Shown piece by piece: positions 44,736 to 58,548 of a stretch of 64,000 nt of DNA. Position 1 is the first letter of the stretch; each line of letters begins with the position of its first letter. Source of the stretch: a virus. Position numbers and translations under genes: made by a program. The DNA lies in IMG/VR virus record IMGVR_UViG_3300022602_000029, positions 62,001-126,000 of that record; one strand, written 5' to 3'. The notes beneath the pieces are model-generated. The model did no database searches. It saw nothing but the letters and a program-made list of their open reading frames with translations, and was not told the DNA's origin.

Positions 44736-44762
44736 GTCAGCTCCTTTGTTGTTCATGTATGT

Positions 44763-44988: not shown

Positions 44989-45015
44989 TGTGGGCTCCTT
45001 GTTGTCTATGTATGT

Positions 45016-45046
45016 ATTATACTGCCAAAAAAAAGACCCGAGTCAA
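45016..45046 (-). promoter_or_regulatory. Early sigma70 promoter for gene 44788
   Basis: TTGACT, 19-nt spacer containing eight T, TATAAT. The spacing is 2 nt longer than in its neighbours, so it may be weaker. Confidence 0.7.
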
Positions 45047-45061
45047 CCGTAGGGTCTTTGA

Positions 45062-45522: not shown

Positions 45523-45782
45523 CGTGAGACCTTTTGTTCTAGTTCGTTGATCTGTCGTTGATATCTGTTGATCAGCTCGCGTTGTTCTACCATGCCTTTG
45601 GCCGCGTGATCTAGGGCATCTTCGTATCGAGTTGCGGCGTCATGCTCACCTTCCTGCCGTGCTATCCAATCGGCCGCCCAGAACAGGGCCAAGAAGCACC
45701 AGAACTGCCAACCCCAGGAAGGCACTCCCAGGCTATCGATCAGGATGCCTAGGGTGCAGTAAATGGCTATGCGCTCGATCAT
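45519..45782 (-). CDS. Small membrane protein with coiled-coil tail
   Basis: Eighty-seven residues. Two hydrophobic stretches near the N-terminus (IAIYCTLGILIDSLG and WGWQFWCFLALFWAADW) are followed by a charged helix predicted as coiled coil (MVEQRELINRYQRQINELEQ). ATGA overlaps at both ends place it between the AAA+ ATPase and the GcrA-like protein. The layout resembles an anchor or spanin/holin-like protein, but the operon context argues for an ATPase partner. Confidence 0.7.
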   Translation of the reverse strand: MIERIAIYCTLGILIDSLGVPSWGWQFWCFLALFWAADWIARQEGEHDAATRYEDALDHAAKGMVEQRELINRYQRQINELEQKVSR

Positions 45783-46645
45783 GTGCGTCTCATGCAGGTA
45801 GTCTTGGCCATAGCTTGCCAGTTGGTAGGAAAGGCTGCTCTCAAGTCGGCCAGCTTCAAGACCATGCGCAGGCTCAGCTCGCGTAGCTTGTCCTTGTGAT
45901 CTGTTATGAAGGCCAACAGCTCATCCCTTACAACGGGGTCGAACTCATATTTGTCCAGCATACCATCGCCTACGATCTGATTGATCCTTAGCATCTTTTC
46001 GCGCTGTGTGTCCATCTGGAGATCGATGTAGTGGCAGCGACTCTCCAATGCGTCCAAGTGGCTACGTAGCTTCTTGCTCTTGACGTGCTCGAACTTGATG
46101 TTAGTGATGAATATGGCTGAGCCCTTGAACTCGAAACGATCTGGGATGCCTTCACTGCGCAACATACGGCTGTCTGTGTTCCAGGCTATCCATCTCTTGG
46201 CGCTGGAGTCTAGGGCACCTTTGAGTATGTTCAGACTCAGCTCATCCAACAAGATCTGATCGCAGTCATCGAAGACCACTACGTTCTTCTCAGCGGCAAA
46301 CTCATATAGCTTGCTGTAGAGACCTAGTGCGCTCATGGCACCCTTCACGATCTCGTATTTGGGTTTGCGTTCGGCCAAGGTGTCAAACAGGCCGTCCTTC
46401 TGGAGCACAGCTTCTACGCCAAAGCTCTTGCCTACGCCTGGAGGGCCACTCACGATCATTGCACGCACGGTGCCTGACTTGACTGCCTTGGTCATGTCGT
46501 CTAGGATCGTGAATCTCTCTCTCAATCTCTCGATGATCTCTTGATCGCTCTCCTTGGCTACCTCACGCTCGCGTTGTGCGATGGCTGCTGTGTCGAACTC
46601 CAAGATCGTGGTGCCCGCTGTGGGCTTGGTGCTGGCTTTGGCCAT
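45779..46645 (-). CDS. AAA+ ATPase
   Basis: Two hundred and eighty-eight residues. Walker A GPPGVGKS (67-74), Walker B VVVFDDCDQ (122-130), a sensor-1-like AIFITNIKFEHVKSKKLRSHLDALESRC segment with an arginine that could serve as finger, and a helical C-terminal lid. The DDCDQ variant (Asp rather than Glu after DD) deserves notice. It heads a four-gene operon with a membrane protein, a GcrA-like protein and a FeoA-like protein. Its cellular target is unknown; remodelling of a host complex is a possibility. Confidence 0.82.
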   Translation of the reverse strand: MAKASTKPTAGTTILEFDTAAIAQREREVAKESDQEIIERLRERFTILDDMTKAVKSGTVRAMIVSGPPGVGKSFGVEAVLQKDGLFDTLAERKPKYEIVKGAMSALGLYSKLYEFAAEKNVVVFDDCDQILLDELSLNILKGALDSSAKRWIAWNTDSRMLRSEGIPDRFEFKGSAIFITNIKFEHVKSKKLRSHLDALESRCHYIDLQMDTQREKMLRINQIVGDGMLDKYEFDPVVRDELLAFITDHKDKLRELSLRMVLKLADLRAAFPTNWQAMAKTTCMRRT

Positions 46646-46673
46646 GTATTGCTCCTGCGTTGTTTAAAATCGT

Positions 46674-46702
46674 ATTATAACATTATTTACTAGCCGAGTC
46701 AA
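46674..46702 (-). promoter_or_regulatory. Early sigma70 promoter for the AAA+ operon
   Basis: TTGACT, 17-nt spacer, TATAAT, then a 28-nt leader with CAGGAG. Confidence 0.85.
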
Positions 46703-46710
46703 CCGCTAGT

Positions 46711-46824
46711 TTATCCAAAAAGGTATCGGGCCAAGGCGTTGCCCAGCACTACCAACATGATCGTGCAGGTGGCCAGGGTGAGAGCAGCCAAGAGTAGCAG
46801 GAGAGGGATTGGATCGTCTTTCAT
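46711..46824 (-). CDS. Thirty-seven-residue membrane peptide
   Basis: Thirty-seven residues: MKDDPIP followed by a long hydrophobic helix (LLLLLAALTLATCTIMLVVL) and GNALARYLFG. Its ATG overlaps the preceding stop (TGATG), the third gene in a chain of 1-nt overlaps. Confidence 0.6.
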   Translation of the reverse strand: MKDDPIPLLLLLAALTLATCTIMLVVLGNALARYLFG

Positions 46825-46997
46825 CAGTAGGTTTCCTTGACTATGTAGTAGATATCGTCCGGGTAGAGTTCCTTGAATGCATCGGTCTTGATGTAGTCGT
46901 TCAGGGCCTGTGCATTCATGAACTTGCGATGGTACACTCCCACGTGCGTGTCTTTACGGCATACGGTTAGGTATACGCTTTTTGCGTGTCCGGCCAT
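46824..46997 (-). CDS. Small protein of unknown function
   Basis: Fifty-seven residues (MAGHAKSVYLTVCRKDTHVG ... DDIYYIVKETY), with alternating strand/helix character. Start and stop each overlap a neighbour by 1 nt (TAATG, TGATG), which supports a real gene. Confidence 0.62.
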   Translation of the reverse strand: MAGHAKSVYLTVCRKDTHVGVYHRKFMNAQALNDYIKTDAFKELYPDDIYYIVKETY

Positions 46998-47194
46998 TAC
47001 TTGTTGACCTTCACGTTAGTTTTGAATGCTGCCCCGAGGATGACCACTGCAGCCCAGGTCGAGAAATCGTATGGGATGTTGAGTGCGGGGAATAAGGTGT
47101 TCAGGGCCCACAGTGTGAGGAGCGGACCGATGGCCACCAGTACGGCTACCACGACGATGGCTCCCAGGAGCTCTGCTAGTTTGTTTGTTTCCAT
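46997..47194 (-). CDS. Small membrane protein
   Basis: Sixty-five residues from ATG 47194 (METNKLAELLG). Two hydrophobic segments (AIVVVAVLVAIGPLLTLWAL and WAAVVILGAAF) form a hairpin. AAGGAAAAC precedes the start. No sigma70 boxes are visible; instead the 13-nt motif at 47211-47223 lies 16 nt upstream. First gene of a three-gene chain. Confidence 0.66.
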   Translation of the reverse strand: METNKLAELLGAIVVVAVLVAIGPLLTLWALNTLFPALNIPYDFSTWAAVVILGAAFKTNVKVNK

Positions 47195-47210
47195 TTGTTT
47201 TCCTTTAGTG

Positions 47211-47223
47211 TTACAGCGGGGTC
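47211..47223 (-). repeat. Motif copy 1: YTACAGCGGGGTC (GACCCCGCTGTAA read leftward)
   Basis: First of five copies. In the direction of transcription it lies 16 nt upstream of ATG 47194, whose operon lacks a sigma70 promoter. Confidence 0.7.
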
Positions 47224-47230
47224 TTGGCAC

Positions 47231-47479
47231 TTAGTAGTGCATAGGATGACCTACGTAGTTGTAGTCGTCCATAGGGTCTAGTTCGTCTTCAACTTCGGGC
47301 TCATACTCGTCATCAGGGAGCATGTTATTGCTCTCCATCATGTCGCCTACGTCCGCATCGCTCATGTAGCAGAGGCAAGCTTCTAATACTGTGTCTGCGT
47401 CTAAGAGACCTTCAGCTAGTAAGTCCATTAGCTTGACTGTGTTCTTGCGTGCCACGCTGCCGTTGTAGTATTCTATCAT
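47231..47479 (-). CDS. Small acidic early protein
   Basis: Eighty-two residues. Helical start (NTVKLMDLLAEGLLDADTVLEACL) and an acidic tail (DDEYEPEVEDELDPMDDY). AAAGGAGCACTAG precedes the ATG and a perfect sigma70 promoter lies upstream. Function unknown. Confidence 0.72.
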   Translation of the reverse strand: MIEYYNGSVARKNTVKLMDLLAEGLLDADTVLEACLCYMSDADVGDMMESNNMLPDDEYEPEVEDELDPMDDYNYVGHPMHY

Positions 47480-47508
47480 CTAGTGCTCCTTTTACTGCTT
47501 AAAAACTT

Positions 47509-47537
47509 ATTATAACGCATTCTGTCCAAAATGTCAA
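47509..47537 (-). promoter_or_regulatory. Early sigma70 promoter, perfect consensus, for gene 47231
   Basis: TTGACA, 17-nt spacer, TATAAT. Almost a copy of the promoter at 47759-47787. Confidence 0.88.
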
Positions 47538-47545
47538 ATGCGCTG

Positions 47546-47564
47546 TAATAAGCCCTTATGGGCT
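47546..47564 (-). terminator. Weak terminator after gene 47584
   Basis: AGCCC, loop and GGGCT followed by TTATTAC; a short stem with an imperfect T-run just upstream of the next promoter. Confidence 0.5.
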
Positions 47565-47583
47565 GTAGGGTTATTATATAACA

Positions 47584-47739
47584 TTAATCCACGTAGTAGT
47601 CAACCGTTTGCAATAGTGTGCTCATTGCGTTCTCTAACTCGTTAAAGCACTCCAGTTCCGCTAGTTGTACCCCATCGCATGTTGCCTCCAACAGCATAGC
47701 TTCCACTTCCGCTAGTTTAACAAGTATTGCATCTTTCAT
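47584..47739 (-). CDS. Small helical early protein
   Basis: Fifty-one residues (MKDAILVKLAEVEAMLLEAT ... STLLQTVDYYVD), predicted as two helices. AAGGAGCAC and a perfect promoter precede it. A TTGACT near its end, 19 nt before a TATAAT, may be an extra promoter for the next gene. Confidence 0.66.
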   Translation of the reverse strand: MKDAILVKLAEVEAMLLEATCDGVQLAELECFNELENAMSTLLQTVDYYVD

Positions 47740-47758
47740 TTGTGCTCCTTAAAAACTT

Positions 47759-47787
47759 ATTATAACGCATTTTGGCAAAACTGTCAA
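47759..47787 (-). promoter_or_regulatory. Early sigma70 promoter, perfect consensus, for gene 47584
   Basis: TTGACA, 17-nt spacer, TATAAT. Confidence 0.88.
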
Positions 47788-47793
47788 ATGCGT

Positions 47794-47815
47794 TATAAAA
47801 AGCCCTTACGGGCTT
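47794..47815 (-). terminator. Rho-independent terminator after gene 47823
   Basis: AAGCCC, loop GTAA-like and GGGCTT running into TTT; lies directly before the next promoter. Confidence 0.7.
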
Positions 47816-47822
47816 AGTGTTA

Positions 47823-48008
47823 TTATGCGTCCAGTTCCATTTCCTCTATGTTAGTAACAACATCTTTCAGTCCGTCCTCTAACGCCTCTGCTATTAAATT
47901 ACGCTGTGCTGTCTCAGCGTTAACTCTGCTACTGTAAACGCCTGTATTATAAAAAGCGTTCTCATCGTCGCCCCATCCCAGCACTTGCACAATGTAAACT
48001 TTTTGCAT
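47823..48008 (-). CDS. Small early protein, unknown function
   Basis: Sixty-one residues (VYIVQVLGWGDDENAFYNTG, then NAETAQRNLIAEALEDG): a beta hairpin followed by a helix, the look of many small phage proteins of the type that describe time or distance-dependent regulators, with no name. AAAGGAGCTGGC precedes the ATG. Confidence 0.68.
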   Translation of the reverse strand: MQKVYIVQVLGWGDDENAFYNTGVYSSRVNAETAQRNLIAEALEDGLKDVVTNIEEMELDA

Positions 48009-48034
48009 GCCAGCTCCTTTGTTAGTGTAAGTGT

Positions 48035-48063
48035 ATTATACAATAAAAAAGAAACCCGCACAA
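48035..48063 (-). promoter_or_regulatory. Early promoter fused with upstream terminator
   Basis: TTGTGC, 17-nt spacer, TATAAT. The -35 box is part of the right arm of the terminator hairpin at 48044-48071. Confidence 0.7.
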
Positions 48064-48071
48064 ATGGCGGG
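48044..48071 (-). terminator. Rho-independent terminator after the Api92-like gene
   Basis: CCCGC, loop and GCGGG followed by TTTCTTTTTT. A second hairpin (GTGTGGC/GCCACAC, 48081-48100) lies just before it. Confidence 0.8.
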
Positions 48072-48108
48072 CCTTTGGGAGTGTGGCCCAAAAGCCACAC
48101 CACCATGA

Positions 48109-48714
48109 TTACTCGTTGACTGCGCTCACACCTCCGTCTAGATCGATCTCTTGATTCTCCTCGTCTTCATACTCGGCAATCGTTTCTGATATCGCAAACA
48201 TCTCATCGAGATCCTCGGGGATGGCATCCTTGACTTGATCGCTAGTCATGTCAGAGAGATTGTAGCCTTCATCCCCGTCTGCATCAAACACGCCACAGAA
48301 GGCCATTCCGGATTCATAGTAATAGGCCTTTACACCGAACCCTAGATCAAGTAACCTTTCGTAGGCAGCGATAGGAGGGGCCCAGGCACTGTCAAAGTAA
48401 AAACTGACGCTGTTAGAATCTAACCTAGTGATACTGCCATCATCACCCCCGACGTCCCACTTAGTGCCCCACTCGTTGACACAATAATCATACCAGTTTT
48501 TGTAACCGTGTTTGATCTTGTTGTCTAGCTCTTTCTGCTCTAGTGCCGCCTGCTCATCAGGATCTCCCACACGGCCTGCCACGATCTGTAGATCGGATGG
48601 GATAGGAATAAACTCATCGAGCAGTCTACTATCAGCAAATGCTCGTGCCGCACGCTCGATCATCTCTGGGTCTGTGTGGGTTAACTTGAGGTTGTTGTTA
48701 CACCAGTTTGGCAT
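48109..48714 (-). CDS. Api92-like ferredoxin-fold protein (DUF1281 family)
   Basis: Two hundred and one residues. MPNWCNNNLKLTHTD, LLDEFIPIPSDL, NWYDYCVNEWGTKWDVGG and VSFYFDSAWAPPIAAYERL are the hallmarks of the Api92/DUF1281 family, common on phages and plasmids with no known function. An acidic C-terminal tail follows. AAGGAG precedes the ATG, and its -10 box lies inside the upstream gene. Confidence 0.82.
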   Translation of the reverse strand: MPNWCNNNLKLTHTDPEMIERAARAFADSRLLDEFIPIPSDLQIVAGRVGDPDEQAALEQKELDNKIKHGYKNWYDYCVNEWGTKWDVGGDDGSITRLDSNSVSFYFDSAWAPPIAAYERLLDLGFGVKAYYYESGMAFCGVFDADGDEGYNLSDMTSDQVKDAIPEDLDEMFAISETIAEYEDEENQEIDLDGGVSAVNE

Positions 48715-48723
48715 AGGATCTCC

Positions 48724-48885
48724 TTAAATGGTTGAAGTGTCTATTATACTGTCTGCTAGTAAGACTGTGATCTCATAGGCTTTTTTACAACGGAATCTCG
48801 CCTGCGCTTTTTGCTGTGCCTCATAGGAGCTCGAGGCCTGGACAGCGATCTCCTTGCCGCGATATAGGCAGATGTAATCTCTCAT
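48724..48885 (-). CDS. Small protein, carries the next promoter in its 3' end
   Basis: Fifty-three residues (MRDYICLYRGKEIAVQASSS, then YEAQQKAQARFRCKKAYEI): strand, helix and strand, the shape of small phage proteins with a Y-x-A-x-x-KA motif. ATGA overlap with the preceding gene. TATAAT at 48743-48748 inside its C-terminal codons serves the Api92-like gene. Confidence 0.66.
   Translation of the reverse strand: MRDYICLYRGKEIAVQASSSYEAQQKAQARFRCKKAYEITVLLADSIIDTSTI
48743..48771 (-). promoter_or_regulatory. Weak sigma70-like promoter inside gene 48724
   Basis: ATCACA, 17-nt spacer, TATAAT at 48743-48748; strong -10 but poor -35. Reads into the Api92-like gene. Confidence 0.5.
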
Positions 48886-49067
48886 GCAGTCTCCTTTGGG
48901 GTCATAAGTTTACGCATATCTCTCATAAACAAACGGATGGCTTCTGCATCCGGTGCGAACAGTTCATCCCTGAGATCCCACATCTCTGTGGCCGCCATAA
49001 GGATGTCACAGTTGGTGTTTTGCTCGGCATACGCTTGTACTCTCTCACACGCTTCTGCTATTAACAT
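48882..49067 (-). CDS. Small helical early protein
   Basis: Sixty-one residues, all helical (MLIAEACERVQAYAEQNTNC ... RLFMRDMRKLMTPKETA). AAAGGGAGCACTT precedes the ATG; TATAAT at 49090-49095 is strong but has no well-spaced -35. ATGA overlap with the next gene. Confidence 0.66.
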   Translation of the reverse strand: MLIAEACERVQAYAEQNTNCDILMAATEMWDLRDELFAPDAEAIRLFMRDMRKLMTPKETA

Positions 49068-49089
49068 AAGTGCTCCCTTTAAAAGTAAT

Positions 49090-49095
49090 ATTATA
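49090..49095 (-). promoter_or_regulatory. -10 box of the 48882 transcription unit
   Basis: TATAAT preceded by TTGACGC at the wrong distance (1 nt). No good -35 at 16-19 nt, so activity may need an activator or be low. Confidence 0.45.
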
Positions 49096-49159
49096 GCGTC
49101 AAATTAGATTGGACTTACATGGGCGTGGCTAAAAAGCCACTTGGTCCCAATGCCTGGTA

Positions 49160-49345
49160 TTAGATATCGTATTGGTCAGCGTACCATTCGTCGTCGATCA
49201 TGTTCTGGCGATTGCGGAACTCGTTGTAGTCACGCTCGTCTTCAGCCATGTTTTCCTCAACTTGTGCGCCTGCTTGGTCTAGTGTGAGACCTTGTGCTAA
49301 CAGCTCTGCGATCTGTGCGTTGTACTCTTCCTGGCTATAAAACAT
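49160..49345 (-). CDS. Small early protein, unknown function
   Basis: Sixty-one residues (YSQEEYNAQIAELLAQGLTL then ENMAEDERDYNEFRNRQNMI), helical and acidic. AAAGGAGCACTT and a sigma70 promoter precede it. A GTGGCT/AGCCAC hairpin at 49133-49146 follows. Confidence 0.7.
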   Translation of the reverse strand: MFYSQEEYNAQIAELLAQGLTLDQAGAQVEENMAEDERDYNEFRNRQNMIDDEWYADQYDI

Positions 49346-49371
49346 AAGTGCTCCTTTGTTGCTATGTGACG

Positions 49372-49400
49372 ATTATACTGCCAAATAATACCCGAGTCAA
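49372..49400 (-). promoter_or_regulatory. Early sigma70 promoter for gene 49160
   Basis: TTGACT, 17-nt spacer, TATAAT. Confidence 0.86.
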
Positions 49401-49408
49401 CCGTAGGG

Positions 49409-49663
49409 TTAATATTCGTAGAACTCAACCGTAGGATCCAAGGCCTTGAGCTCTGCGGCCACTTGTGTCAGTTGCTTGTAGCGGCGCTGGACTTCACTGC
49501 GAGGTAACTCACCATCACAGCTAAGGTTCTCAGGGCTTAGTGCCGCATCGATGTGTGCAGCGAGTTGGCGGCGGCCTACTGCTGTAGTGATCTCATACTG
49601 GCGGCCGTTGAACATGGCGTTCCACTTGTTTTGCTGGGCGATGTAGGCTTTGAGTGCTGTCAT
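49409..49663 (-). CDS. Small early protein, unknown function
   Basis: Eighty-four residues. MTALKAYIAQQNKWNAMFNG, ITTAVGRRQLAAHIDAALSP and EVQRRYKQLTQVAAELKALD give a mostly helical protein with a conserved look, but I do not know the family. AAGGAGCAC and a sigma70 promoter precede it. Confidence 0.7.
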   Translation of the reverse strand: MTALKAYIAQQNKWNAMFNGRQYEITTAVGRRQLAAHIDAALSPENLSCDGELPRSEVQRRYKQLTQVAAELKALDPTVEFYEY

Positions 49664-49683
49664 ATGTGCTCCTTAAAAACATT

Positions 49684-49712
49684 ATTATACTGCCAAATAA
49701 TACCCCAGTCAA
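49684..49712 (-). promoter_or_regulatory. Early sigma70 promoter for gene 49409
   Basis: TTGACT, 17-nt spacer, TATAAT. Confidence 0.86.
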
Positions 49713-49775
49713 CCTTAGGGTCTTTCTCTCAGTCCTTCCCTGCACGCTGCGTCGTGAAACCTGATGACATGGTCG

Positions 49776-49816
49776 TGAAAAAGCCCCAGAGATCCAACGT
49801 TAGGATCCTGGGGCTA
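49776..49816 (-). terminator. Strong terminator after gene 49857
   Basis: AGCCCCAG plus GATCC pair with GGATC plus CTGGGGCT around AACGTT, then five T in the leftward direction. Confidence 0.85.
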
Positions 49817-49856
49817 GTGCCTGGGGAGCGACTACCAGGACTTTGGGAGCAACCTA

Positions 49857-50132
49857 TTAAAGGGTGATGCCCAGGGCCATGGCCTTGTAACCTAGAGCTA
49901 CTAGCTCCTGGCTTGGGGTTCCCATTACATACTCTACCACGTGAGCGTTGTTACCTGCTACACGGTTCTTACGATATACAGCGAAACCATGCTGACGAAC
50001 ACGGCTGACCTCAGCGCTGATGTTTTTGATACCAAAACGCTTTTCAGCTTGGCTAGCAGTAATACGCTCGCCGGCCTGTAGTGCCTTGAATAACTTGTAT
50101 GCTTTGGTTTCTTGATTGAACTTCTTAATCAT
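49857..50132 (-). CDS. Winged-helix-like DNA-binding protein
   Basis: Ninety-one residues. The stretch AYKLFKALQAGERITASQAEKRFGI followed by NISAEVSRVRQHGFAVYRKNR is a helix-turn-helix with a basic wing, as in small phage regulators. It could control early or middle transcription. AGGAAAC precedes the ATG and a terminator follows. Confidence 0.74.
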   Translation of the reverse strand: MIKKFNQETKAYKLFKALQAGERITASQAEKRFGIKNISAEVSRVRQHGFAVYRKNRVAGNNAHVVEYVMGTPSQELVALGYKAMALGITL

Positions 50133-50176
50133 TTTTGTTGTTTCCTATATGTTGCTGTACTTAAACAGTTACATAT

Positions 50177-50205
50177 ATATTACGCTTTCTTTACTGGCTT
50201 TGCAA
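50177..50205 (-). promoter_or_regulatory. Sigma70-like promoter for the winged-helix gene
   Basis: TTGCAA, 17-nt spacer, TAATAT; located in the last codons of the upstream gene. Confidence 0.5.
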
Positions 50206-50470
50206 CTGGTTTTTTATCCAACTTCTTACTATTTCGTCCAACTGATCTAATGCTTGTTTCATTCTTCGCTCCAAATTCTTTTGTTACGTAATAGCGGATT
50301 AGGGATCTCTGGATCATCGTTACGAGATCCCCGTTGTCATCCGTGATGAACCGGACCGGACAGCGTCCCCAGGTGCCCAACCTTTGGAACTCTTCGAACC
50401 ACTTGCGATGGGCCTTGAGTTCCGGGTCAAAGACTACCCAGGGTCTACACATGTATGAGAGTCTACTCAT
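50180..50470 (-). CDS. Small basic protein, unknown function
   Basis: Ninety-six residues. PWVVFDPELKAHRKWFEEFQ, WGRCPVRFITDDNGDLVTMI and SLIRYYVTKEFG form a compact front domain; the tail is lysine-rich (KKLDKKPVAKPVKKA). There is no Shine-Dalgarno sequence; the 13-nt motif (copy 2) ends 6 nt before the ATG. Confidence 0.68.
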   Translation of the reverse strand: MSRLSYMCRPWVVFDPELKAHRKWFEEFQRLGTWGRCPVRFITDDNGDLVTMIQRSLIRYYVTKEFGAKNETSIRSVGRNSKKLDKKPVAKPVKKA

Positions 50471-50476
50471 TGGGTA

Positions 50477-50489
50477 TTACAGCGGGGTC
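50477..50489 (-). repeat. Motif copy 2: YTACAGCGGGGTC
   Basis: Read leftward it is GACCCCGCTGTAA, 6 nt upstream of ATG 50470, a gene without a recognisable sigma70 promoter. Confidence 0.7.
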
Positions 50490-50498
50490 TCTGTATGT

Positions 50499-50906
50499 TT
50501 AGAAAGGTGCGTCTTCGAGATCGGCCTTAGTAGCGATACCTAATGGAGCCATGCCCTCTAGCGCTGGAACCTGTGGAGTTACCGCAGCCTTAGCTGGAGT
50601 TTCTTTCTTAGGCTTCTTAGCTTCTTTGTTAGGCTTTTGCTCTTTCTTGGCAGCCTGTGTAGAGACCCCACGCTTCTCAGCGGCAGCTTCGAGAGCGGCA
50701 CGCACGGCTTTGTTGCCGTTGTCAAAGTTGATGCTCAACAGGTATGCTACAGCATCTTCCTTGGTCATGGGGTTCTTGAGCTCGATGATATCGATATCTT
50801 TGTGCCCATTTTTACGTAGTACCTTGACACGCATAGCGTCATTGCAGAAGCGGACTTTGAACTCACCGTTTTGTTTTGAAACTCCGGCATGTGTGAACTT
50901 AGACAT
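50499..50906 (-). CDS. Conserved phage protein with Lys/Ala-rich tail
   Basis: One hundred and thirty-five residues from ATG 50906 (MSKFTHAGVSKQNGEFKVRF). The first 75 residues form a conserved alpha/beta domain (GHKDIDIIELKNPMTKEDAV); then a histone-like Lys/Ala/Pro tail and a conserved end (GIATKADLEDAPF). The basic tail suggests nucleic-acid binding. AAGGAG precedes the ATG; a longer frame upstream overlaps the promoter and is rejected. Confidence 0.74.
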   Translation of the reverse strand: MSKFTHAGVSKQNGEFKVRFCNDAMRVKVLRKNGHKDIDIIELKNPMTKEDAVAYLLSINFDNGNKAVRAALEAAAEKRGVSTQAAKKEQKPNKEAKKPKKETPAKAAVTPQVPALEGMAPLGIATKADLEDAPF

Positions 50907-50958
50907 GTTAATCTCCTTGTAAATGTCTGTGTGTGAAAAATAACTAACTGGAACTATT

Positions 50959-50987
50959 AATATAGCACAGCTAGTTCGAACTGTCAA
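50959..50987 (-). promoter_or_regulatory. Early sigma70 promoter for gene 50499
   Basis: TTGACA, 17-nt spacer, TATATT; the -35 overlaps the stop region of the preceding gene. A long leader (about 50 nt) follows. Confidence 0.8.
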
Positions 50988-51259
50988 CTGTTAATAGTTT
51001 CGAAAGGGCTCAGATCTTCGGTCTGTGGCTGATCCGCCACACCCTCACCATCCAACCAAGCTAACACCATCTCGATTGGAATCTCGAGCACGTTGGCGAT
51101 GGTTTTGGCACTCATGCCGTCGATGTAGAGTTGCTCGATATCATATGCGATGTCTTTCATTGCGCTCATTTCGTTCTCCAGTTTAGTGATTTCAATCTCA
51201 TCCCTAACCCCTCGGCTAGGGCTTTCCCTTAGTGCTTGTAGTCGAGCATGGATACTCAT
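50984..51259 (-). CDS. Helix-turn-helix protein
   Basis: Ninety-one residues. AYDIEQLYIDGMSAKTIANVLEIPIEMVLAWL is a clear helix-turn-helix of the sigma-region-4/resolvase tail type, preceded by a helical coiled-coil-like segment (RDEIEITKLENEMSAMKD). A small transcription regulator is likely. AAGGAGCAAC precedes the ATG; co-transcribed with gene 51272. Confidence 0.76.
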   Translation of the reverse strand: MSIHARLQALRESPSRGVRDEIEITKLENEMSAMKDIAYDIEQLYIDGMSAKTIANVLEIPIEMVLAWLDGEGVADQPQTEDLSPFETINS

Positions 51260-51271
51260 AGTTGCTCCTTG

Positions 51272-51760
51272 TTAAGCGATTAGTTCCATAGTGTCAGAAA
51301 CAGAAGCCAATGCTTCAGCTAGTGGCACTAGCTTGTTGTAAAACTTCACGTCTGATTCGTAGGTGTTGCCCGCATACCACACACCATCCTGCATGATGTA
51401 GTACCATTCAGCGCCGCAGCCTTCAGCACGCTCAAAGAACTTGTCAAAGGTGTCGTCTACCTTCCACTCAGTACCAGTCTCGCCGCGATCGCGTCCGTAA
51501 AAGGTACAGCTATCACCGTGCTCGGCATCGTAGGCTGCCTGCTGATCTTCAGTGAGATCGTATGTGCTGAATGCATGCTTCTCTCCGATGTTCTTCTTGA
51601 GGCTGCTGAGATCGCCCAGTGATACTAGCTGGTTGGCCTTTGAGCTGTCGTAGTGTTGGGCTAAGAGTTGGCCATTGTGCTCTAGGTAGCCATCCCAGTG
51701 GCAGTATACGCTCTTGCAGTTGCTGCCGTGCATGACTCCGATGCGTGATCTTGTTCCCAT
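51272..51760 (-). CDS. Conserved phage early protein
   Basis: One hundred and sixty-two residues. MGTRSRIGVMHGSNCKSVYCHWDGYLEHNG... is the start of a widespread family in large phages and bacteria with no known function, recognisable by R-S-x-I-G and YCHWDGY; WYYIMQDGVWYAGN is the late conserved motif. AAAGGAGCGAAC and a sigma70 promoter precede it. Confidence 0.8.
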   Translation of the reverse strand: MGTRSRIGVMHGSNCKSVYCHWDGYLEHNGQLLAQHYDSSKANQLVSLGDLSSLKKNIGEKHAFSTYDLTEDQQAAYDAEHGDSCTFYGRDRGETGTEWKVDDTFDKFFERAEGCGAEWYYIMQDGVWYAGNTYESDVKFYNKLVPLAEALASVSDTMELIA

Positions 51761-51793
51761 AAAGTTCGCTCCTTTTTGTTTAACAATAGATAT

Positions 51794-51822
51794 ATTATAC
51801 GATCAAAACTGCCGCCCGTCAA
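51794..51822 (-). promoter_or_regulatory. Early sigma70 promoter for gene 51272
   Basis: TTGACG, 17-nt spacer, TATAAT. The -35 overlaps the end of the upstream gene. Confidence 0.86.
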
Positions 51823-52043
51823 CCAAAGGCACGCAATAACCCTACAACCATTATGGCTATTGATATCACGTTCACTGTCAGCTGTGGGCGATTCTTGACC
51901 CGATAGGCCCAGAAGGTAAAGGCCGCTGTGCCTACGGTGAAGCTCACGATGTTCCAGGGATAGGCCGCGGGCCCCACGCTGTTGAGTGCATGCCCTAGTA
52001 CTATGAGTACTGCGCCCGCCCACTGCACATGATCTAGCTTCAT
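51819..52043 (-). CDS. Small integral membrane protein
   Basis: Seventy-four residues with two to three transmembrane helices (AGAVLIVLGHALNSVG, VSFTVGTAAFTFWAY, ISIAIMVVGLLRAFG) and the motif YPWNIVSF. Size and motif resemble a small conserved cyanophage membrane protein; transport or superinfection roles are guesses. ATGA overlap with the upstream gene. Confidence 0.72.
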   Translation of the reverse strand: MKLDHVQWAGAVLIVLGHALNSVGPAAYPWNIVSFTVGTAAFTFWAYRVKNRPQLTVNVISIAIMVVGLLRAFG

Positions 52044-52312
52044 ACCACTTCCAACATGTTAGCTGGCACCTTCCAGAGACCCTCTGTGGTGCTGACCGTG
52101 ACGTATTTCTGTGCGATCTTGGTCACACTGCCCTGCATGGTTCGGCCGCGCCGCACGCTGTTAAAGGTCACTGCCTGCCCTAGGCGTAGCCCGCGCTTGT
52201 TTTCAGAGATCAGCCTGTGACGGGCGAACTTGACAGCTTCAGTGATGGTGTTCAATTCATCATTAGTGAACGAACCATGGATGATGGCTTGGTTGACTTG
52301 ATCGATGTTCAT
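52040..52312 (-). CDS. SH3/KOW-like small phage protein
   Basis: Ninety residues. Helical N-terminus (ELNTITEAVKFARHRLISEN) followed by a small beta-barrel pattern LGQAVTFNSVRRGRTMQGSVTKIAQKYVTV...LWKVPANML, common in large phages and similar to KOW/SH3 nucleic-acid-binding folds. AAGGAGCAC and a sigma70 promoter precede it. Confidence 0.76.
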   Translation of the reverse strand: MNIDQVNQAIIHGSFTNDELNTITEAVKFARHRLISENKRGLRLGQAVTFNSVRRGRTMQGSVTKIAQKYVTVSTTEGLWKVPANMLEVV

Positions 52313-52333
52313 GAGTGCTCCTTAAAAAAACTT

Positions 52334-52362
52334 AGTATACTATCGGTTTTACCATTTGTCAA
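52334..52362 (-). promoter_or_regulatory. Early sigma70 promoter for gene 52040
   Basis: TTGACA, 17-nt spacer, TATACT. Twenty bases around the -35 are identical to the promoter at 53144-53172. Confidence 0.85.
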
Positions 52363-52763
52363 GCTTCTTTATAGTGCTTCCACTTGTTGTGATCTCCTGC
52401 TCGCTTGCCTTTTTCCGAATGGCATAAACTACAGAGTTCCTGTAGATTTTGTGGACGATTGTCCGTGTTATCACCGTTCTTGTGATCTACTTCTGTGCTT
52501 AGTTTAAAGCCTGTAGATGCTACCAAGTCCCAATCTACTACACAGGGGAACCCTAGCCTGCTATTAATGTTAGAACAACGATTTTTCTTGAACCTTTTAA
52601 CCCCCGGAGCCAATGGATAATCCATATAGCTGTTCTTGTGACAAGTGCCGCAGAACACTCTATATCTCACATCTGATCCACCTACTCGTCCCCTCTGAGT
52701 GGCGCAGAGACTGCCACAGCCTGGGTTGATACAGATCGGTCTAAAATGTAATACTCGTCCCAT
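52359..52763 (-). CDS. HNH endonuclease
   Basis: One hundred and thirty-four residues. Zinc-knuckle cysteines (CGTCHKN) precede the HNH core TEVDHKNGDNTDNRPQNLQELCSLCHSEKGKRAGDHNK. It is likely a small homing endonuclease inserted in the early gene array. AAGGAGCGAC and a promoter precede it. Confidence 0.84.
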   Translation of the reverse strand: MGRVLHFRPICINPGCGSLCATQRGRVGGSDVRYRVFCGTCHKNSYMDYPLAPGVKRFKKNRCSNINSRLGFPCVVDWDLVASTGFKLSTEVDHKNGDNTDNRPQNLQELCSLCHSEKGKRAGDHNKWKHYKEA

Positions 52764-52791
52764 AAGTCGCTCCTTGTTAGTCTATGTCGCT

Positions 52792-52820
52792 ATTATACTG
52801 CCAAAATAAAGACCCTTCAA
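52792..52820 (-). promoter_or_regulatory. Early sigma70 promoter for the HNH gene
   Basis: TTGAAG, 17-nt spacer, TATAAT. Confidence 0.78.
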
Positions 52821-53137
52821 TCTCCCCGGGTATCAGTGTTGAGCTCTGGGCGCAACTGCCTGCGTAGCTCCACTTCTCTGCGGTGCGCCTCGGCCTTGCC
52901 CCTGATGACTTCTAACACTGCTACAGTGATCTGGCTCTTGTCCTCTAGCAGCCTCAGCACTGAGCAGAGGCTCCAGTCCTTGGCCTCCGTGTGCGCACGA
53001 TAGAAGTGCTTGGCAGCACGGGTCCTGGCGCTTTTCAACGCTGTAGACTCTGTCTTAGCCGTGACACCCACGTAGCGCAGTGTGCCCACTGTCAGCTGAT
53101 AGATCACATGATTTCGATCGGTTCTTTTCTTTCTCAT
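52817..53137 (-). CDS. GIY-YIG-type nuclease domain protein
   Basis: One hundred and six residues from ATG 53137 (MRKKRTDRN). HVIYQLTVGTLRYVGVT corresponds to the GIY...YIG strands, followed by the Arg-containing helix RTRAAKHFYRAHTE and a later acidic position (EAHRREVELRRQL). Probably a small homing or repair nuclease. A second ATG at 53143 lies upstream of the expected transcription start, so 53137, where transcription should begin, is preferred. Confidence 0.7.
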   Translation of the reverse strand: MRKKRTDRNHVIYQLTVGTLRYVGVTAKTESTALKSARTRAAKHFYRAHTEAKDWSLCSVLRLLEDKSQITVAVLEVIRGKAEAHRREVELRRQLRPELNTDTRGD

Positions 53138-53143
53138 ACACAT

Positions 53144-53172
53144 ATTATACAGTCGGTTTTACCATTTGTCAA
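53144..53172 (-). promoter_or_regulatory. Early sigma70 promoter (leaderless) for the GIY-YIG gene
   Basis: TTGACA, 17-nt spacer, TATAAT: perfect consensus. Six nt separate the -10 from ATG 53137. Confidence 0.85.
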
Positions 53173-53200
53173 CCCTATGCTTGTAAAGATATGTAAAGCT

Positions 53201-53461
53201 TCAATCAGTAGGTCCCTTCTGCACCCTAGCCGCGGGATCTCCTCCGAGGATCCTCTTGATCTCAGTATCTGGATCACCCCGGGCCCTGGCCGATCTCCAT
53301 TCCGTTTCTCGCTGCTCGTCCTGAGCGCTGTCCTCTGTATACTGTCCGGGGCACACAGCATAGTCTGAATCACAGGCCGTGCCCCACAACAGCTCCGCTA
53401 AGACCCAGATCAAGAACACCACGAGGAACATGGTTTCTAGGGTCCAATCCGTCTTTTTCAT
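53201..53461 (-). CDS. Small single-pass membrane protein
   Basis: Eighty-six residues: one transmembrane helix (TMFLVVFLIWVLAELLW) near the start, then a Cys-containing, acidic and finally basic tail (KRILGGDPAARVQKG). AGAAGG precedes the ATG weakly and no promoter is visible. First leftward gene next to the origin region. Confidence 0.6.
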   Translation of the reverse strand: MKKTDWTLETMFLVVFLIWVLAELLWGTACDSDYAVCPGQYTEDSAQDEQRETEWRSARARGDPDTEIKRILGGDPAARVQKGPTD

Positions 53462-53802
53462 AGTTAGATACCTTCTTTGATCTTAGAGAAACCCCGGCAG
53501 GACCTTCACGATCCCTGCCGAGGCTCAATCTGGGCTACTGCTAGTTCAGTTCCCAGAGCCCTCCTCCCCGTTTATGACTACCTCATATACGGTATAGCAC
53601 GCGGCTGCCTCCGCGAGGATTCTAGCACAGCACGGCTCCATGATGATCGCTCATCTCAGCTAGGCTGCCTCCTTAGTTCCGGCGCTTATCTAGACCACGG
53701 CAGCGGCTAGATCAAACCCGGGATTCTCTGTGCTATAGGCTTATAGTCACTAGTATACAGCCAATACACTACTAGGTCAACGTGTATATAGTACTAGACA
53801 CA

Positions 53803-53834
53803 TATACACTCATGTAGCTATACACACATGTAGA
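53803..53834 (+). repeat. Two tandem 16-bp repeats TATACACWCATGTAGM
   Basis: TATACACTCATGTAGC directly followed by TATACACACATGTAGA. The junction makes CTATACACA (53818-53826), one mismatch from a DnaA box. Confidence 0.75.
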
Positions 53835-53880
53835 CATATACTCTAGCTCAAGATCCACACGCACATACCAGGACGGCTCT

Positions 53881-53893
53881 TAGCAGCGGGGTC
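53881..53893 (-). repeat. Motif copy 3: TAGCAGCGGGGTC
   Basis: First of three copies in the origin region; two mismatches to the consensus at its left end. Confidence 0.6.
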
Positions 53894-54088
53894 ATTTTAG
53901 ATCTAACTGTATATAGCTGGCTATATGGTCCTAGACCGTAGGGGCGCAGAATCAGGGGATTTCTGGTAAAATCGGTAGGAAAAACTGTGAAAACCATACC
54001 TAGATCTGTTGTTTCTACGCTGAAATCTAGCGTAATAAATCTTGACAGGCCGTTTGGCGAGACAGGCTATGCCAAAATACTTTTCAAG

Positions 54089-54141
54089 TTATCCACAGGC
54101 TATCCACAGCTTATACACATGTTATACACTCGTTATCCACT
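54089..54141 (+). other. Five DnaA-box-like iterons phased at 11 bp
   Basis: TTATCCACA (54089), CTATCCACA (54100), TTATACACA (54111), TTATACACT (54122) and TTATCCACT (54133): starts are exactly 11 bp apart. Two match the DnaA box TTWTNCACA fully, three differ at one position. Phasing near one helical turn would align bound initiators on one face. Confidence 0.75.
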
Positions 54142-54185
54142 GGGTTGTCAACGTAGAAGTCACCCTGCTATCCCCTGCTAGAGCT

Positions 54186-54198
54186 TTACAGCGGGGTC
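54186..54198 (-). repeat. Motif copy 4: TTACAGCGGGGTC
   Basis: 45 bp beyond the last iteron; perfect consensus. Confidence 0.7.
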
Positions 54199-54324
54199 AT
54201 CTTACAGTACAGCCAGAGTTAACTAGAGTTAGCATCTATCTTCTACTAGAAGATCTGGGCTATTCTAGCTTTTTTTACCGCTGAGCCTTACAGGCTAACT
54301 ACGGACTAACTAAGGGTTAACTAG

Positions 54325-54337
54325 CTACAGCGGGGTC
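54325..54337 (-). repeat. Motif copy 5: CTACAGCGGGGTC
   Basis: Directly follows GTTAACTAG; perfect consensus with C at the first position. Confidence 0.7.
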
Positions 54338-54470
54338 TTTACAGCTATTAGACTATTCGTGTATACTGTGTGTACTGCGATTAGATATCTTATACGGGCA
54401 TTTGTATCTAGAATCACTATGAGTAGCCGGTGATGTGTGTCACTAGCACTTAGACATATTGCTTCTTGGC

Positions 54471-54478
54471 TATAAATA
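54471..54478 (+). promoter_or_regulatory. Late promoter TATAAATA (leaderless)
   Basis: Perfect late element, 7 nt before ATG 54486. Confidence 0.72.
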
Positions 54479-54485
54479 TCTCTAT

Positions 54486-55640
54486 ATGAGATACAAAGAA
54501 TTCGCACCTACTGAGTCTGTTACAGCTGGTACATCTGATTGGCAACCGCTTTATCAGCTTTCACGACAGCTATATCAGCACGTCTATATCAAGGCTCTGG
54601 GACCGCGTGTTAGAGTACAGGTCAAGGACCTAGACAGCGTCTACACAGATCGCGATGGTAGTGATCTAGATGGTAAGATAGATCTAGAGTTTTGGCTAGA
54701 CGCTCCGCATGACTGGGACGTTATTAAGCAGAGCTACGAAGCTGGTGAGGATGATCACTGGCTAGTTGACTATCACATCACAGAAGCCGCTGATCAAGTA
54801 GCTGATGCTATACGTCGCTACTATGGCGATACTTGGGCTGAGATCAGCAATGAGCTAGAGGGCGGTTGGGGAGTGGATGGATCAGTCACAGAAGATGTGC
54901 AGTCGGCGGAACCGCTACCTCTGCGTGGCTATGAGAATCTCTACGTAGAAGATAGTTCACAAGGGCCCTTGCTCTATGGTGTAGACCTAGAATGGCACGG
55001 GGAATCGGGCATCATAGGTTGGTTTGACTTCACGGCTAATCTCTCGACTGGTGTATTCGAGATAACTGGTAATAGGGCCAACAGAACTAGTGGGGGCGAG
55101 TTCGACACTGACGGTGACCTAGAGCGGTGGATCGAAAGCTGTATCGAGGACGCACAGCGCGAGTATGGTACCGATTGGGATGATATCGATAGCGAGCTAC
55201 ACGGCAGCTGGGGAGTAGATGACACTGATGAATCCCTTGGTCAAGTGGCCAGCTTAGAAGCTACACCCATAAAAAACATCGATTCAGATCGTCTACAGCA
55301 GGCCATCACTACCATAGCCCAGTTGGTGCACGATCGACAGATGGCCTATGGTGTGGCCCAGCGTAGCACCCTAGAAAAGGAACAGGCCGCCAGATACCAA
55401 AAACGCTACGCCGCTGTAGCCGCAGATCGACTCAAGGCAGAACAGGGCGAACTGGCCGTGGCAGATCTGGCTACGGCCCTGTATCGATATGTCTATCAAC
55501 ATCAAGCAGGGCACCCCATGGGCGGTAGCAAGAGCCATAACCCCCTGCTACGTGACTTTTTAGAAAATGATGTTACTGTGTCAGTAGATGATCAAGGCGG
55601 ACTGCATCCCGAAGAAAGCAGTTGGGGTGTCGACAGCTGA
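54486..55640 (+). CDS. Late protein with internal WGVD repeats
   Basis: Three hundred and eighty-four residues from ATG 54486 (MRYKEFAPTES). Two related segments, YYGDTWAEISNELEGGWGVD and YGTDWDDIDSELHGSWGVD, and a terminal SSWGVDS show an internal duplication; a helical region about residues 260-340 (LEKEQAARYQKRYAAVAADR) separates them. No known family. It is leaderless and late, and translationally coupled to the next gene by TGATG. A virion or virion-assembly role is likely. Confidence 0.68.
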   Translation: MRYKEFAPTESVTAGTSDWQPLYQLSRQLYQHVYIKALGPRVRVQVKDLDSVYTDRDGSDLDGKIDLEFWLDAPHDWDVIKQSYEAGEDDHWLVDYHITEAADQVADAIRRYYGDTWAEISNELEGGWGVDGSVTEDVQSAEPLPLRGYENLYVEDSSQGPLLYGVDLEWHGESGIIGWFDFTANLSTGVFEITGNRANRTSGGEFDTDGDLERWIESCIEDAQREYGTDWDDIDSELHGSWGVDDTDESLGQVASLEATPIKNIDSDRLQQAITTIAQLVHDRQMAYGVAQRSTLEKEQAARYQKRYAAVAADRLKAEQGELAVADLATALYRYVYQHQAGHPMGGSKSHNPLLRDFLENDVTVSVDDQGGLHPEESSWGVDS

Positions 55641-56809
55641 TGAGAGCACGGGATTTCCTGCTGTTGGAATACGACAGATCCAAGACCCTAAAGACCTTTG
55701 GCACCAAGCTACTGCAGGCCCTGGCTAGAGATCCCACAGCGGACCCCAAGCTCAAACATCAGCAGGATCCCAAGCAGGTATTAGATCAGATAGAAACTAA
55801 CGACCCCACTGAGCACAAGGAATACACACAATGGCTGGCCAAATGCTACAGCAATGAGGCGGTCAAGCTAGAGGACATCAACAGCAAGGCACAAGAAGCC
55901 CTGGCCCTTTATCATCAGATGAAACGCAAGCGCCTGTTCCGTGGTGAATACAGCGCCTGGGGTGACATCTACAAGCTGTCATTCCGTGATCTGCTGAAGG
56001 TGGTGAATACTGCCCAGCTGAGCCAACAGCTGAATCGAGAAAAGAAAGAACGACCCAAGGGTAGCGCCACAGAAATACTACGCAACGACCAAGTGCGTAT
56101 CTTGAAGATCAACGATGAGGCCGCGGCCAAATACTACGGGCAGGGCACCACATGGTGCACTTCAGGTGACAAGGACAATCGTTTCAACTACTACAACGAC
56201 AAAGGCCCCATATTCGTGCTACTGCCCCAACACCCCCAGTATCAGGGTGAAAAGTATCAGATACACATAGCCACAGATCAGTTCATGGACCCCCAGGATG
56301 AGCCAGCAGGCGGGGGTACTGACATGGGCAGTTGGTATCTGTTGAAACGACGCTTTGGCGACATCACCTCCGTGATAGCAGAAAACGACCCCAACATTTA
56401 CCTTAACCTATACTTGATAGATGAAGTCACGTTCAACAGAGTATTGGACAAGGTCAAGGCCCTGGCCTATAGACGGGTGGGTGAGTTCCGTGATCTCTAC
56501 GGTGAAGATGCTCTACCCGATGATTGGATAGAAGAATACAATGAGTTTCTGGAAGAACTGGATCGGAGGGCCCTGATAGATCTACAGCAGGAACTAGACT
56601 ACCAAGATGGCCATCACAGGGATCTATTGGCCATACCAGATATGATAGCCTTGCCTATACTCAGCGAGCACTATGGTGTGCTGGGCGATCTAGACAACGG
56701 TGATCTTGCCCATGATCTAGCGCAGGCCATAGGCTACGGTATCGTGATCCAACATGATGGCAAGGGCAAGTTTACCGTAACTCTAGACCACCAATACGAC
56801 CCACATTAG
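55640..56809 (+). CDS. Late protein with TTWCTS motif, unknown function
   Basis: Three hundred and eighty-nine residues from ATG 55640 (MRARDFLLLEY). The core is YYGQGTTWCTSGDKDNRFNY followed by KGPIFVLLP, a motif (TxWC-x-S...N-x-F..Y...G-x-hahl) that recurs in many large-phage proteins of unknown function, and YQIHIATDQFMD. The C-terminal 120 residues are acidic and helical. It converges on the GT9-like gene with a 4-nt overlap. The residues T, W and C could be catalytic; not established. Confidence 0.72.
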   Translation: MRARDFLLLEYDRSKTLKTFGTKLLQALARDPTADPKLKHQQDPKQVLDQIETNDPTEHKEYTQWLAKCYSNEAVKLEDINSKAQEALALYHQMKRKRLFRGEYSAWGDIYKLSFRDLLKVVNTAQLSQQLNREKKERPKGSATEILRNDQVRILKINDEAAAKYYGQGTTWCTSGDKDNRFNYYNDKGPIFVLLPQHPQYQGEKYQIHIATDQFMDPQDEPAGGGTDMGSWYLLKRRFGDITSVIAENDPNIYLNLYLIDEVTFNRVLDKVKALAYRRVGEFRDLYGEDALPDDWIEEYNEFLEELDRRALIDLQQELDYQDGHHRDLLAIPDMIALPILSEHYGVLGDLDNGDLAHDLAQAIGYGIVIQHDGKGKFTVTLDHQYDPH

Positions 56810-57567
56810 GGTCCAGGGCTGAATATGGGCTTGGCCGCTAGGCTATCCGATGGGGGCTGTAGTATGGTCCAATCCGTGCCCAAGACAGGAGTTAGGTGTA
56901 TGTGGCTACGGGGTATCCAATACTTGTCTCCATCTATCTTGAGCTGATCCACTAGGTTGCTGAATGCGCTGTCTATCAGGATCATGGCCTGGGCACCCTC
57001 TATGACCTTGAGCCAATCAAACACGCTGTCAGTCAAGGCCCTTATTTCTATGCGTTGCCAGTCCGAAGGTACGTTGCTGAGATCAGCCGCACACCTGTAG
57101 GTGCTACCCTCTGTGTGATAGACCATGTACTGCTCTTGGGTCACTACCTTATCATAGAGCCGTTGCTCTCGCTCTGGGTTCCTAGTGATGCACTCACCTA
57201 GGGTCCATTTCTTCAGGAAGGGTACCCCCGCTTTAGAATACTTGAACTCGTCAAAATGCTGTATCTGGAAGAAGGGCTGTTGGCTCAGTTCTGGGCGTAT
57301 GTTCAGGGCCTGGTATAGGCATATGATCTCATCGCACTTGAAGGCCTTGAGCCTCTTTTCGGGCTCGGTATAAAAGAAGTCGCCCTTGCTGTCTTCGGGT
57401 ATGGGTATCCAGTGTACCCAAGGCACTGTCTCTTTGACAGACCCCCAGAATGGCTCACAGATGGGCCAATAGATCTGGTAGCCCTCATCGGCCCAGTATC
57501 GGGCGATGGGCAGGGCTATGATGATATCACCTAGCCCCCTTGATTGTATGATTCCTAGTTTCTTCAT
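56806..57567 (-). CDS. GT9-like glycosyltransferase
   Basis: Two hundred and fifty-three residues from ATG 57567 (MKKLGIIQSRGLGDIIIALP), which carries the N-terminal GLGD...ALP signature of GT9/ADP-heptose-type transferases. WLKVIEGAQAMILIDSAFSNLVDQL gives the C-terminal nucleotide-sugar region with the S-x-x-x-H/N pattern. Shorter than bacterial heptosyltransferases (about 330). Lies downstream of Dam in a leftward unit. An upstream TTG start overlapping dam is rejected. Confidence 0.74.
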   Translation of the reverse strand: MKKLGIIQSRGLGDIIIALPIARYWADEGYQIYWPICEPFWGSVKETVPWVHWIPIPEDSKGDFFYTEPEKRLKAFKCDEIICLYQALNIRPELSQQPFFQIQHFDEFKYSKAGVPFLKKWTLGECITRNPEREQRLYDKVVTQEQYMVYHTEGSTYRCAADLSNVPSDWQRIEIRALTDSVFDWLKVIEGAQAMILIDSAFSNLVDQLKIDGDKYWIPRSHIHLTPVLGTDWTILQPPSDSLAAKPIFSPGP

Positions 57568-57571
57568 ATTT

Positions 57572-58513
57572 TTAGTTATCGAATTCAAAAAGTTGATCGA
57601 GCAATGTTGGCGCTTGGCTCGGGGGTGTTATAGAAGGACTGTGTAACAAGATCTCCTCAGCGGTCTTGGCCGTATGGGTAGTGTTGTTGTTTTCATCTAC
57701 GGTCTTGGCCCTGCGTCCTGCTGTATAGGTGATAGGGTATTTCTTTAGTATCAACTGACCCTGTTGCTGTGTGTAGAACGCATCTCCGCATTCTCTGTTA
57801 CAGTAGAACACTAGATCTCCTGCTAGGTCCTGTTGCCGACAGAACGTGATCAGATTGGTATGATCCTGATCAGTAAAGGTCTGGCTATAACTGGTAAAGC
57901 TATCTCTATAGGGTGGGTCAAAGAACCAAAAGGTCCTGCCCTGTTTCAGCGCAGTACAGTTCTGCCAGATACCGCAGGTGATGTCTACCCTTTGTAGGAA
58001 GTTATGCCATTCTATAACATTGTCTCTGTCATAGACCTTGACCGTTTGATTTAGCAATCCGCTGGGTGTGGCGAATCTGCCATTGCTGGTCTGGTTAGTC
58101 TGCCATATGCCGTTGAAACCGGTCTTCATCAAGAAGTAAAGGCTAGCACTTTCATCTGTGCTGTTCCATTGATGCCAGTTAGTGGTATACTCTCTGCGTA
58201 GGTCGTAGTAGAAAGCCTTGCGATCTATCTTAGATAAAGGTAGATACTGTAGCGTGAGGGCATCCATACGGGCCATGAAGTTCACGTGATCTGATTTGAT
58301 AGCCCTGTAGATACCTATGATCTCTGCGTTGATATCATTCAAGATAAACTTAGTGATGTTGGGACAGTTTTGGGCTACCCAACACATCATAGCGCCTCCT
58401 CCAAAGAAGGGTTCAGCGTAGGTATCATACCCAGATGTGGGTATGCCTGGATCCACTAGATATTTAGGGATCATCTTGTTCTTGCCACCTGCCCAGATAT
58501 ATAATGGTTTCAT
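57572..58513 (-). CDS. dam: DNA adenine methylase (Dam family)
   Basis: Three hundred and thirteen residues, full length. WAGGKNKMIP and EPFFGGGAM (motif I, 34-42) bind AdoMet; FFDPPYRDSF carries the catalytic DPPY (199-202); order I-TRD-IV makes it an alpha-class N6-adenine methylase like Dam. Target is probably GATC, which is common in this genome. It could protect phage DNA from restriction or influence promoters, including its own (GATC at 58539-58542). Its promoter is leaderless. Confidence 0.88.
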   Translation of the reverse strand: MKPLYIWAGGKNKMIPKYLVDPGIPTSGYDTYAEPFFGGGAMMCWVAQNCPNITKFILNDINAEIIGIYRAIKSDHVNFMARMDALTLQYLPLSKIDRKAFYYDLRREYTTNWHQWNSTDESASLYFLMKTGFNGIWQTNQTSNGRFATPSGLLNQTVKVYDRDNVIEWHNFLQRVDITCGIWQNCTALKQGRTFWFFDPPYRDSFTSYSQTFTDQDHTNLITFCRQQDLAGDLVFYCNRECGDAFYTQQQGQLILKKYPITYTAGRRAKTVDENNNTTHTAKTAEEILLHSPSITPPSQAPTLLDQLFEFDN

Positions 58514-58519
58514 CCTATT

Positions 58520-58548
58520 ATTATACAGGGTTGACTCGGATCTGTCAA
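58520..58548 (-). promoter_or_regulatory. Sigma70 promoter (leaderless) for dam, perfect consensus
   Basis: TTGACA, 17-nt spacer, TATAAT; 6 nt to ATG 58513. Its -35 (58543-58548) lies between the -35 and -10 of the rightward promoter. Confidence 0.86.

Follow-up and report, generated by a model that had tools for sequence, protein, structure and literature searches.

A helically phased array of DnaA-box-like repeats in an origin-like intergenic element of an uncultured T4-related jumbo phage

An intergenic site at about 53.88-54.34 kb of the window is tentatively read here as an iteron-type, origin-like assembly site. The window is the whole 64,000-nucleotide stretch analysed, bases 62001-126000 of a 194-kb (193,746-bp) uncultured virus record. 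In this lineage the phased repeats of the site would be DnaA boxes on which host ATP-DnaA forms a pentamer; we hold this reading at a little less than even confidence. The gene-free control region is conserved and is probably a replication origin, and the use of host DnaA by the phage is plausible, as judged from the sequence. It lies where early-type genes running leftward diverge from a late-type gene running rightward. The site is made up of the fixed core AGGCTATGCnnnAWTAC, a repeat array in helical phase and, on either side, CAGCGGGGT repeats. Host ATP-DnaA would occupy all five boxes in one orientation, giving a head-to-tail pentamer. The pentamer would help to open nearby DNA, and the phage's own DnaB-like helicase and primase might then be loaded onto the opened strands. 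How replication starts in the jumbo T4-related phages is largely unknown, and the element offers a precise place to test it.

The array and its genomic setting

The phage belongs to the T4-related jumbo myoviruses and is uncultured. Its TerL shares 57% identity with those of the Pseudomonas jumbo phages PA5oct and MIJ3, the latter classified in Arenbergviridae, Wroclawvirus. IMG/VR contains closer relatives, among them a 355-kb record whose TerL is 93% identical in the best segment. Judging by the sizes of its relatives, the 194-kb record probably covers only part of a jumbo genome. Megablast found no near-identical cultured phage, and distant blastn matched only DnaA-box stretches of unrelated phages. 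The window encodes a T4-like single-strand binding protein (gp32-like), UvsX, a primase (gp61-like) and a DnaB-like helicase (gp41-like), with the helicase and primase genes at 38.6-41.1 kb. A further gene, at 45779-46645, codes for a member of the T4 NrdC.10 family of AAA proteins. The original description of a T4-type phage therefore holds in the broad sense.

Five DnaA-box-like 9-mers lie on the + strand at 54089-54141, in one orientation and at an exact 11-bp step, that is, 9-bp boxes separated by 2-bp gaps. Boxes 1 (TTATCCACA, 54089-54097) and 3 (TTATACACA, 54111-54119) match TTWTNCACA perfectly. Boxes 2 (CTATCCACA, 54100-54108), 4 (TTATACACT, 54122-54130) and 5 (TTATCCACT, 54133-54141) have one mismatch each. 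The original prediction had given these positions and sequences exactly. In the window, boxes with one mismatch or none form a run of five at step 11, and no run longer than one at any other step from 8 to 15. When 64 kb of the same dinucleotide composition was simulated 60 times with a Markov model, the run never exceeded two. Outside the array, the 193,746-bp record has TTATMCAC as scattered singletons only. The 11-bp array, not the single boxes, is the exceptional feature, and it is unique in the 194-kb record; this supports the origin-like DnaA reading. A chance run of DnaA-like words would agree with the single boxes being no commoner than in shuffles (94 in the window when one mismatch is allowed, against a shuffle mean of 132). 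It was rejected on the analytic expectation for a five-box run (~4e-11 per window), the syntenic conservation in G001 and G002 contradicts it, and its probability is practically negligible.

The gap around the array spans ~1.09 kb (53369-54458) without an ORF of at least 90 aa. It had been called the only gene-free region of 1 kb in the window, which proved incorrect, since 46646-48108 is longer at the same cutoff. The placement between leftward and rightward genes was confirmed. The leftward block has consensus sigma-70 promoters, including TTGACA-17-TATAAT at 53144-53172 (- strand). The first rightward ORF (ATG at 54486, end at 55640) is preceded by TATAAATA at 54471-54478 (+ strand), the sole + strand copy in the window, which resembles a T4 late promoter. 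A search anchored on the protein of 54459-55640 found no relatives, the ORFs neighbouring the array had no initiator-family match in PHROGs or Pfam, and Rfam gave no RNA element.

Several further features of this region were observed. The leftward block (44791-58548, - strand) has many near-perfect TTGACA-17-TATAAT promoters, as do L335, L336, L426 and L429; their abundance suggests strong use of the host sigma-70 RNA polymerase early in infection. The G+C content is ~0.47-0.51 in the region of the leftward genes and the array (window 43000-58000; 245-262 kb of the relative G001), compared with ~0.40 in the rest of both phages. The first rightward ORFs (54486 and the 55622 region in the window; 13379 and 14814 of L335, which is G001) start with MR[YF][KN]EF and have little further similarity, possibly a shared N-terminal signal. 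A conserved ORF at 56806-57588 (- strand), with QSRGLGDIIIALP near its start, resembles the heptosyltransferase type (GT9) by eye, with no Pfam or PHROG match.

The setting between leftward sigma-70 promoters and a rightward TATAAATA-type promoter might point to transcription control where early and late genes diverge. The flanking genes would then be repressed or activated by DnaA or a phage factor bound to the repeats, and the site would not start replication. DnaA is a known transcription factor, and CAGCGGGGT copies are also found in gaps between leftward genes. However, no sigma-70 promoter-like site overlaps the array, and a strong one is found no nearer than ~0.9 kb. A typical DnaA-regulated promoter would probably also need less than a pentamer-type array of five boxes. 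We regard this explanation, the second among the rivals, as distinctly unlikely; the lack of a promoter-like overlap counts for the origin-like DnaA reading.

A composite element and its conservation

The array is only part of a larger element, consisting of the core, the phased repeats and the CAGCGGGGT copies; the core and the CAGCGGGGT copies had been missed in the original prediction. The core, AGGCTATGCCAAAATAC, is located directly upstream of the array at 54064-54080 (+ strand). Its consensus, AGGCTATGCnnnAWTAC, is common to ten distinct records, the window's own included. One copy stands at the syntenic place in G000, G001, G002 (one mismatch), G027, G030 and G038, and no exact match occurs elsewhere in the 21 records searched. 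Additional cores were recovered by pattern scanning and at anchor loci. No relative with the element is cultured, and the relatives come from metagenomic records whose completeness is uncertain.

Flanking repeats are located to the left (CAGCGGGGTCATT, 53884-53896) and to the right (CAGCGGGGTCATC, 54189-54201; CAGCGGGGTCTTT, 54328-54340), all on the + strand. The CAGCGGGGTMTTT copies are on the same strand as the core, and two more lie between leftward genes at about 47214 and 50480. In the element-bearing records AGCGGGGTMWT is hardly seen outside the array region, apart from one stray copy in G002, where four CAGCGGGGTMTTT copies or close variants stand exactly 53 bp apart. Repeats of the CAGCGGGG type occur in 8 of the 10 distinct core-bearing records; a shorter variant, ACAGCGGTTTACAG, takes their place in L430 and L431. 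The conserved core and the region-restricted CAGCGGGGT repeats support the origin-like DnaA reading. Single-strand folding of the CAGCGGGGT copies and the array showed nothing unusual. The CAGCGGGGTMTTT repeats are also always on one strand in L335, L336 (10676-10835), L426, L428, L429, L438, L487 and L488. By eye, the strand upstream of the core is G-rich in several relatives.

Conservation of the array and its spacing in close relatives had been set as a check in the original prediction, and it was found in syntenic position in two long relatives. G001 (355 kb) has four clear boxes at 11-bp steps (TTATCCACA-CTATCCACA-CTATCCACA-CTTTACACA). Their distance from TerL, ~30 kb, is that of the window array, and homologues of the same genes flank them. 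G002 (322 kb) has a degenerate series of six repeats, TTATCCACAGC CTGTACACAGG TCGCCCACAGC CCATCCACAGG TTCATCACAGT and a final TTATTCACA, the last one base off the step. Judged by eye, CACAG keeps the 11-bp period in this series whereas the TTAT half decays. A denser cluster is found in the same interval of G028 (353 kb), with eleven boxes on the opposite strand, several as 11-bp pairs and most of them perfect. The array in place in G001 and G002 and the eleven boxes in G028 favour the origin-like DnaA reading. Genes to the right of the element in G002 (locus L336, 6680-8850, - strand) have many GYGGDKAIFGYG-like repeats by eye, and perhaps encode a repetitive structural protein.

Retention of DnaA boxes in all relatives is ruled out. 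G005 and G029 lack the array and the element at the equivalent position, and MIJ3 has neither core nor array. These absences could reflect relocation instead of loss. In most other core-bearing relatives, the phased repeats are mostly not DnaA boxes. The 100 bp behind the core contain repeats such as TTGTTCACCTA/TTTTCTCATACC (23 bp), TTTCTCACAGG (11), GATTCACACT (10) and AATCTTCCCACC (12). The non-DnaA repeats, together with the lack of the element in G005, G029 and MIJ3, count against the origin-like DnaA reading. Autocorrelation against background windows from the same loci was significant at lags 10-12 and 21-23 (Fisher p ~2e-14, ten distinct records). Without the three DnaA-like members it was ~6e-10 at these lags versus 4e-3 off-helix, and the slight off-helix excess indicates that general repetitiveness contributes to the signal. 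The signal is weak in L430 and negative in L431. As the periodicity is significant without the DnaA-like members, conservation is stronger for the phased arrangement than for the DnaA sequence. Ten distinct records show what is expected of an iteron origin with a phage- or plasmid-encoded initiator, namely direct repeats in tandem and in helical phase at a conserved intergenic position.

In the main rival explanation, the site would be an origin whose repeats are iterons for a phage-encoded initiator with a recognition sequence that drifts between phages, the DnaA match being incidental or secondary. Different phased repeats follow the same core, and their periodicity stands without the DnaA-like members. 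DnaA specificity is highly conserved among bacteria, and one DnaA-bound site should not drift so far. Nevertheless, the repeats of the window and G001 depart from the DnaA consensus at very few positions, and the eleven mostly perfect boxes of G028 would hardly arise from drift alone. Searches for DnaA domains and comparison of the neighbouring ORFs with PHROGs and Pfam gave no candidate phage initiator. On balance, a phage initiator on drifting iterons appears unlikely, although it deserves serious weight.

Another explanation is a decoy function, in which a datA-like array would titrate host DnaA and stop host replication. A tight, high-affinity-type cluster on a high-copy phage could titrate DnaA. 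However, a fixed map position beside a conserved core and CAGCGGGGT repeats should not matter to a decoy, nor should phasing that persists after DnaA identity is lost, and host genomes already have many boxes. We consider this function very improbable.

Candidate binders and origin signals

No phage DnaA was detected in the seven records searched, with only weak sub-cutoff matches to PF08299 and PF00308. This favours the host protein as the binder, and, with the phage helicase and primase present, supports the origin-like DnaA reading. The mostly non-DnaA repeats behind the same core favour a phage protein or another binder in the other relatives. The AAA gene at 45779-46645 was rejected as an initiator; its product matched no PDB sequence and is related to T4 NrdC.10.

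A GC-skew signal had been proposed as a check of the site. A local trough was seen, but the leftward gene block accounts for it, and neither the 355-kb relative nor the 194-kb record has a global skew switch. In the oriC architecture, the unwinding side is expected 3' of the last box. The right flank of the array is 46-62% A+T. It has no strongly AT-rich unwinding element and no clear DnaA-trio 3' of the last box; the only candidate, judged by eye, is TAG-AAG at 54153-54158. A low-stability tract rich in TA steps lies to the left of the array at 53740-53839 (97.5th percentile of 100-bp windows), and is a possible but weak unwinding candidate. The missing skew switch argues against the origin-like DnaA reading, and so does the right flank, where neither a strongly AT-rich unwinding element nor a clear DnaA-trio is seen.

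A wider proposal is that the members of one clade of T4-related jumbo phages share an undescribed origin module with an invariant core, an exchangeable or fast-evolving iteron cassette, and CAGCGGGGT repeats. In some lineages the cassette would have become a DnaA-oligomerization array, by which the host initiator starts the replication of a giant lytic phage. This proposal is speculative, and we give it a rather low probability. Since some relatives have DnaA boxes after the shared core and others do not, comparing them would reveal whether one origin can change from one initiator to another. A search of the open-access literature gave no earlier description of such an element, and its novelty is provisional within that scope.

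Phased boxes in other viruses and known origins

Many viral contigs contain DnaA-box arrays with helical phasing, and this phage is no special case in that respect. In 103 viral loci with three TTATMCACA boxes at free spacing (sample L122-L224), same-strand neighbours peak at 11-12, 21-22 and 33 bp, and spacings of 14-17 bp are nearly absent. A scan of viral contigs at a fixed 11-bp step gave at least 120 matches, some of them simple tandem repeats. The frequency of such arrays makes the window array itself less surprising, and it also supports the origin-like DnaA reading.

The phage array resembles the DnaA-oligomerization region (DOR) of bacterial oriC. It has five near-consensus sites with at most one mismatch, in one orientation and with helical spacing of ~2 bp; the 11-bp steps are exact in the window and G001, and are kept by 5 of the 6 repeats in G002. 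The left DOR of E. coli likewise has five same-orientation boxes supporting a pentamer (PMC10316083). Thermotoga DnaA binds same-orientation boxes with maximal cooperativity at 2-bp gaps, the spacing of boxes 3-5 in the Thermotoga maritima oriC (PMC10316083). The fit of the box geometry to this pentamer and this optimum supports the origin-like DnaA reading. However, the phage element differs from bacterial oriC in belonging to a virulent-type phage without a dnaA gene, in lacking a clear unwinding element or DnaA-trio, and in its phage-specific core and CAGCGGGGT repeats.

Iteron plasmid origins (RK2, F, P1 oriR) have direct short repeats beside DnaA boxes in a compact intergenic origin. The phage element likewise has directly repeated short sites in a compact intergenic place. 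It differs in that the boxes for DnaA are the phased repeats themselves, and no gene for a Rep initiator was identified. T4 (oriE, R-loop origins) belongs to a related lineage, and shares with this phage its own helicase, primase, UvsX and gp32-like proteins. T4 is not known to use DnaA. The Pseudomonas phage PseuGes_254 has a putative DnaA-box origin, predicted by Ori-Finder together with AT-rich repeats (PMC11512268). Both phages have DnaA boxes in a region proposed as an origin; unlike PseuGes_254, the phage described here has an exact 11-bp array that is syntenic in its relatives.
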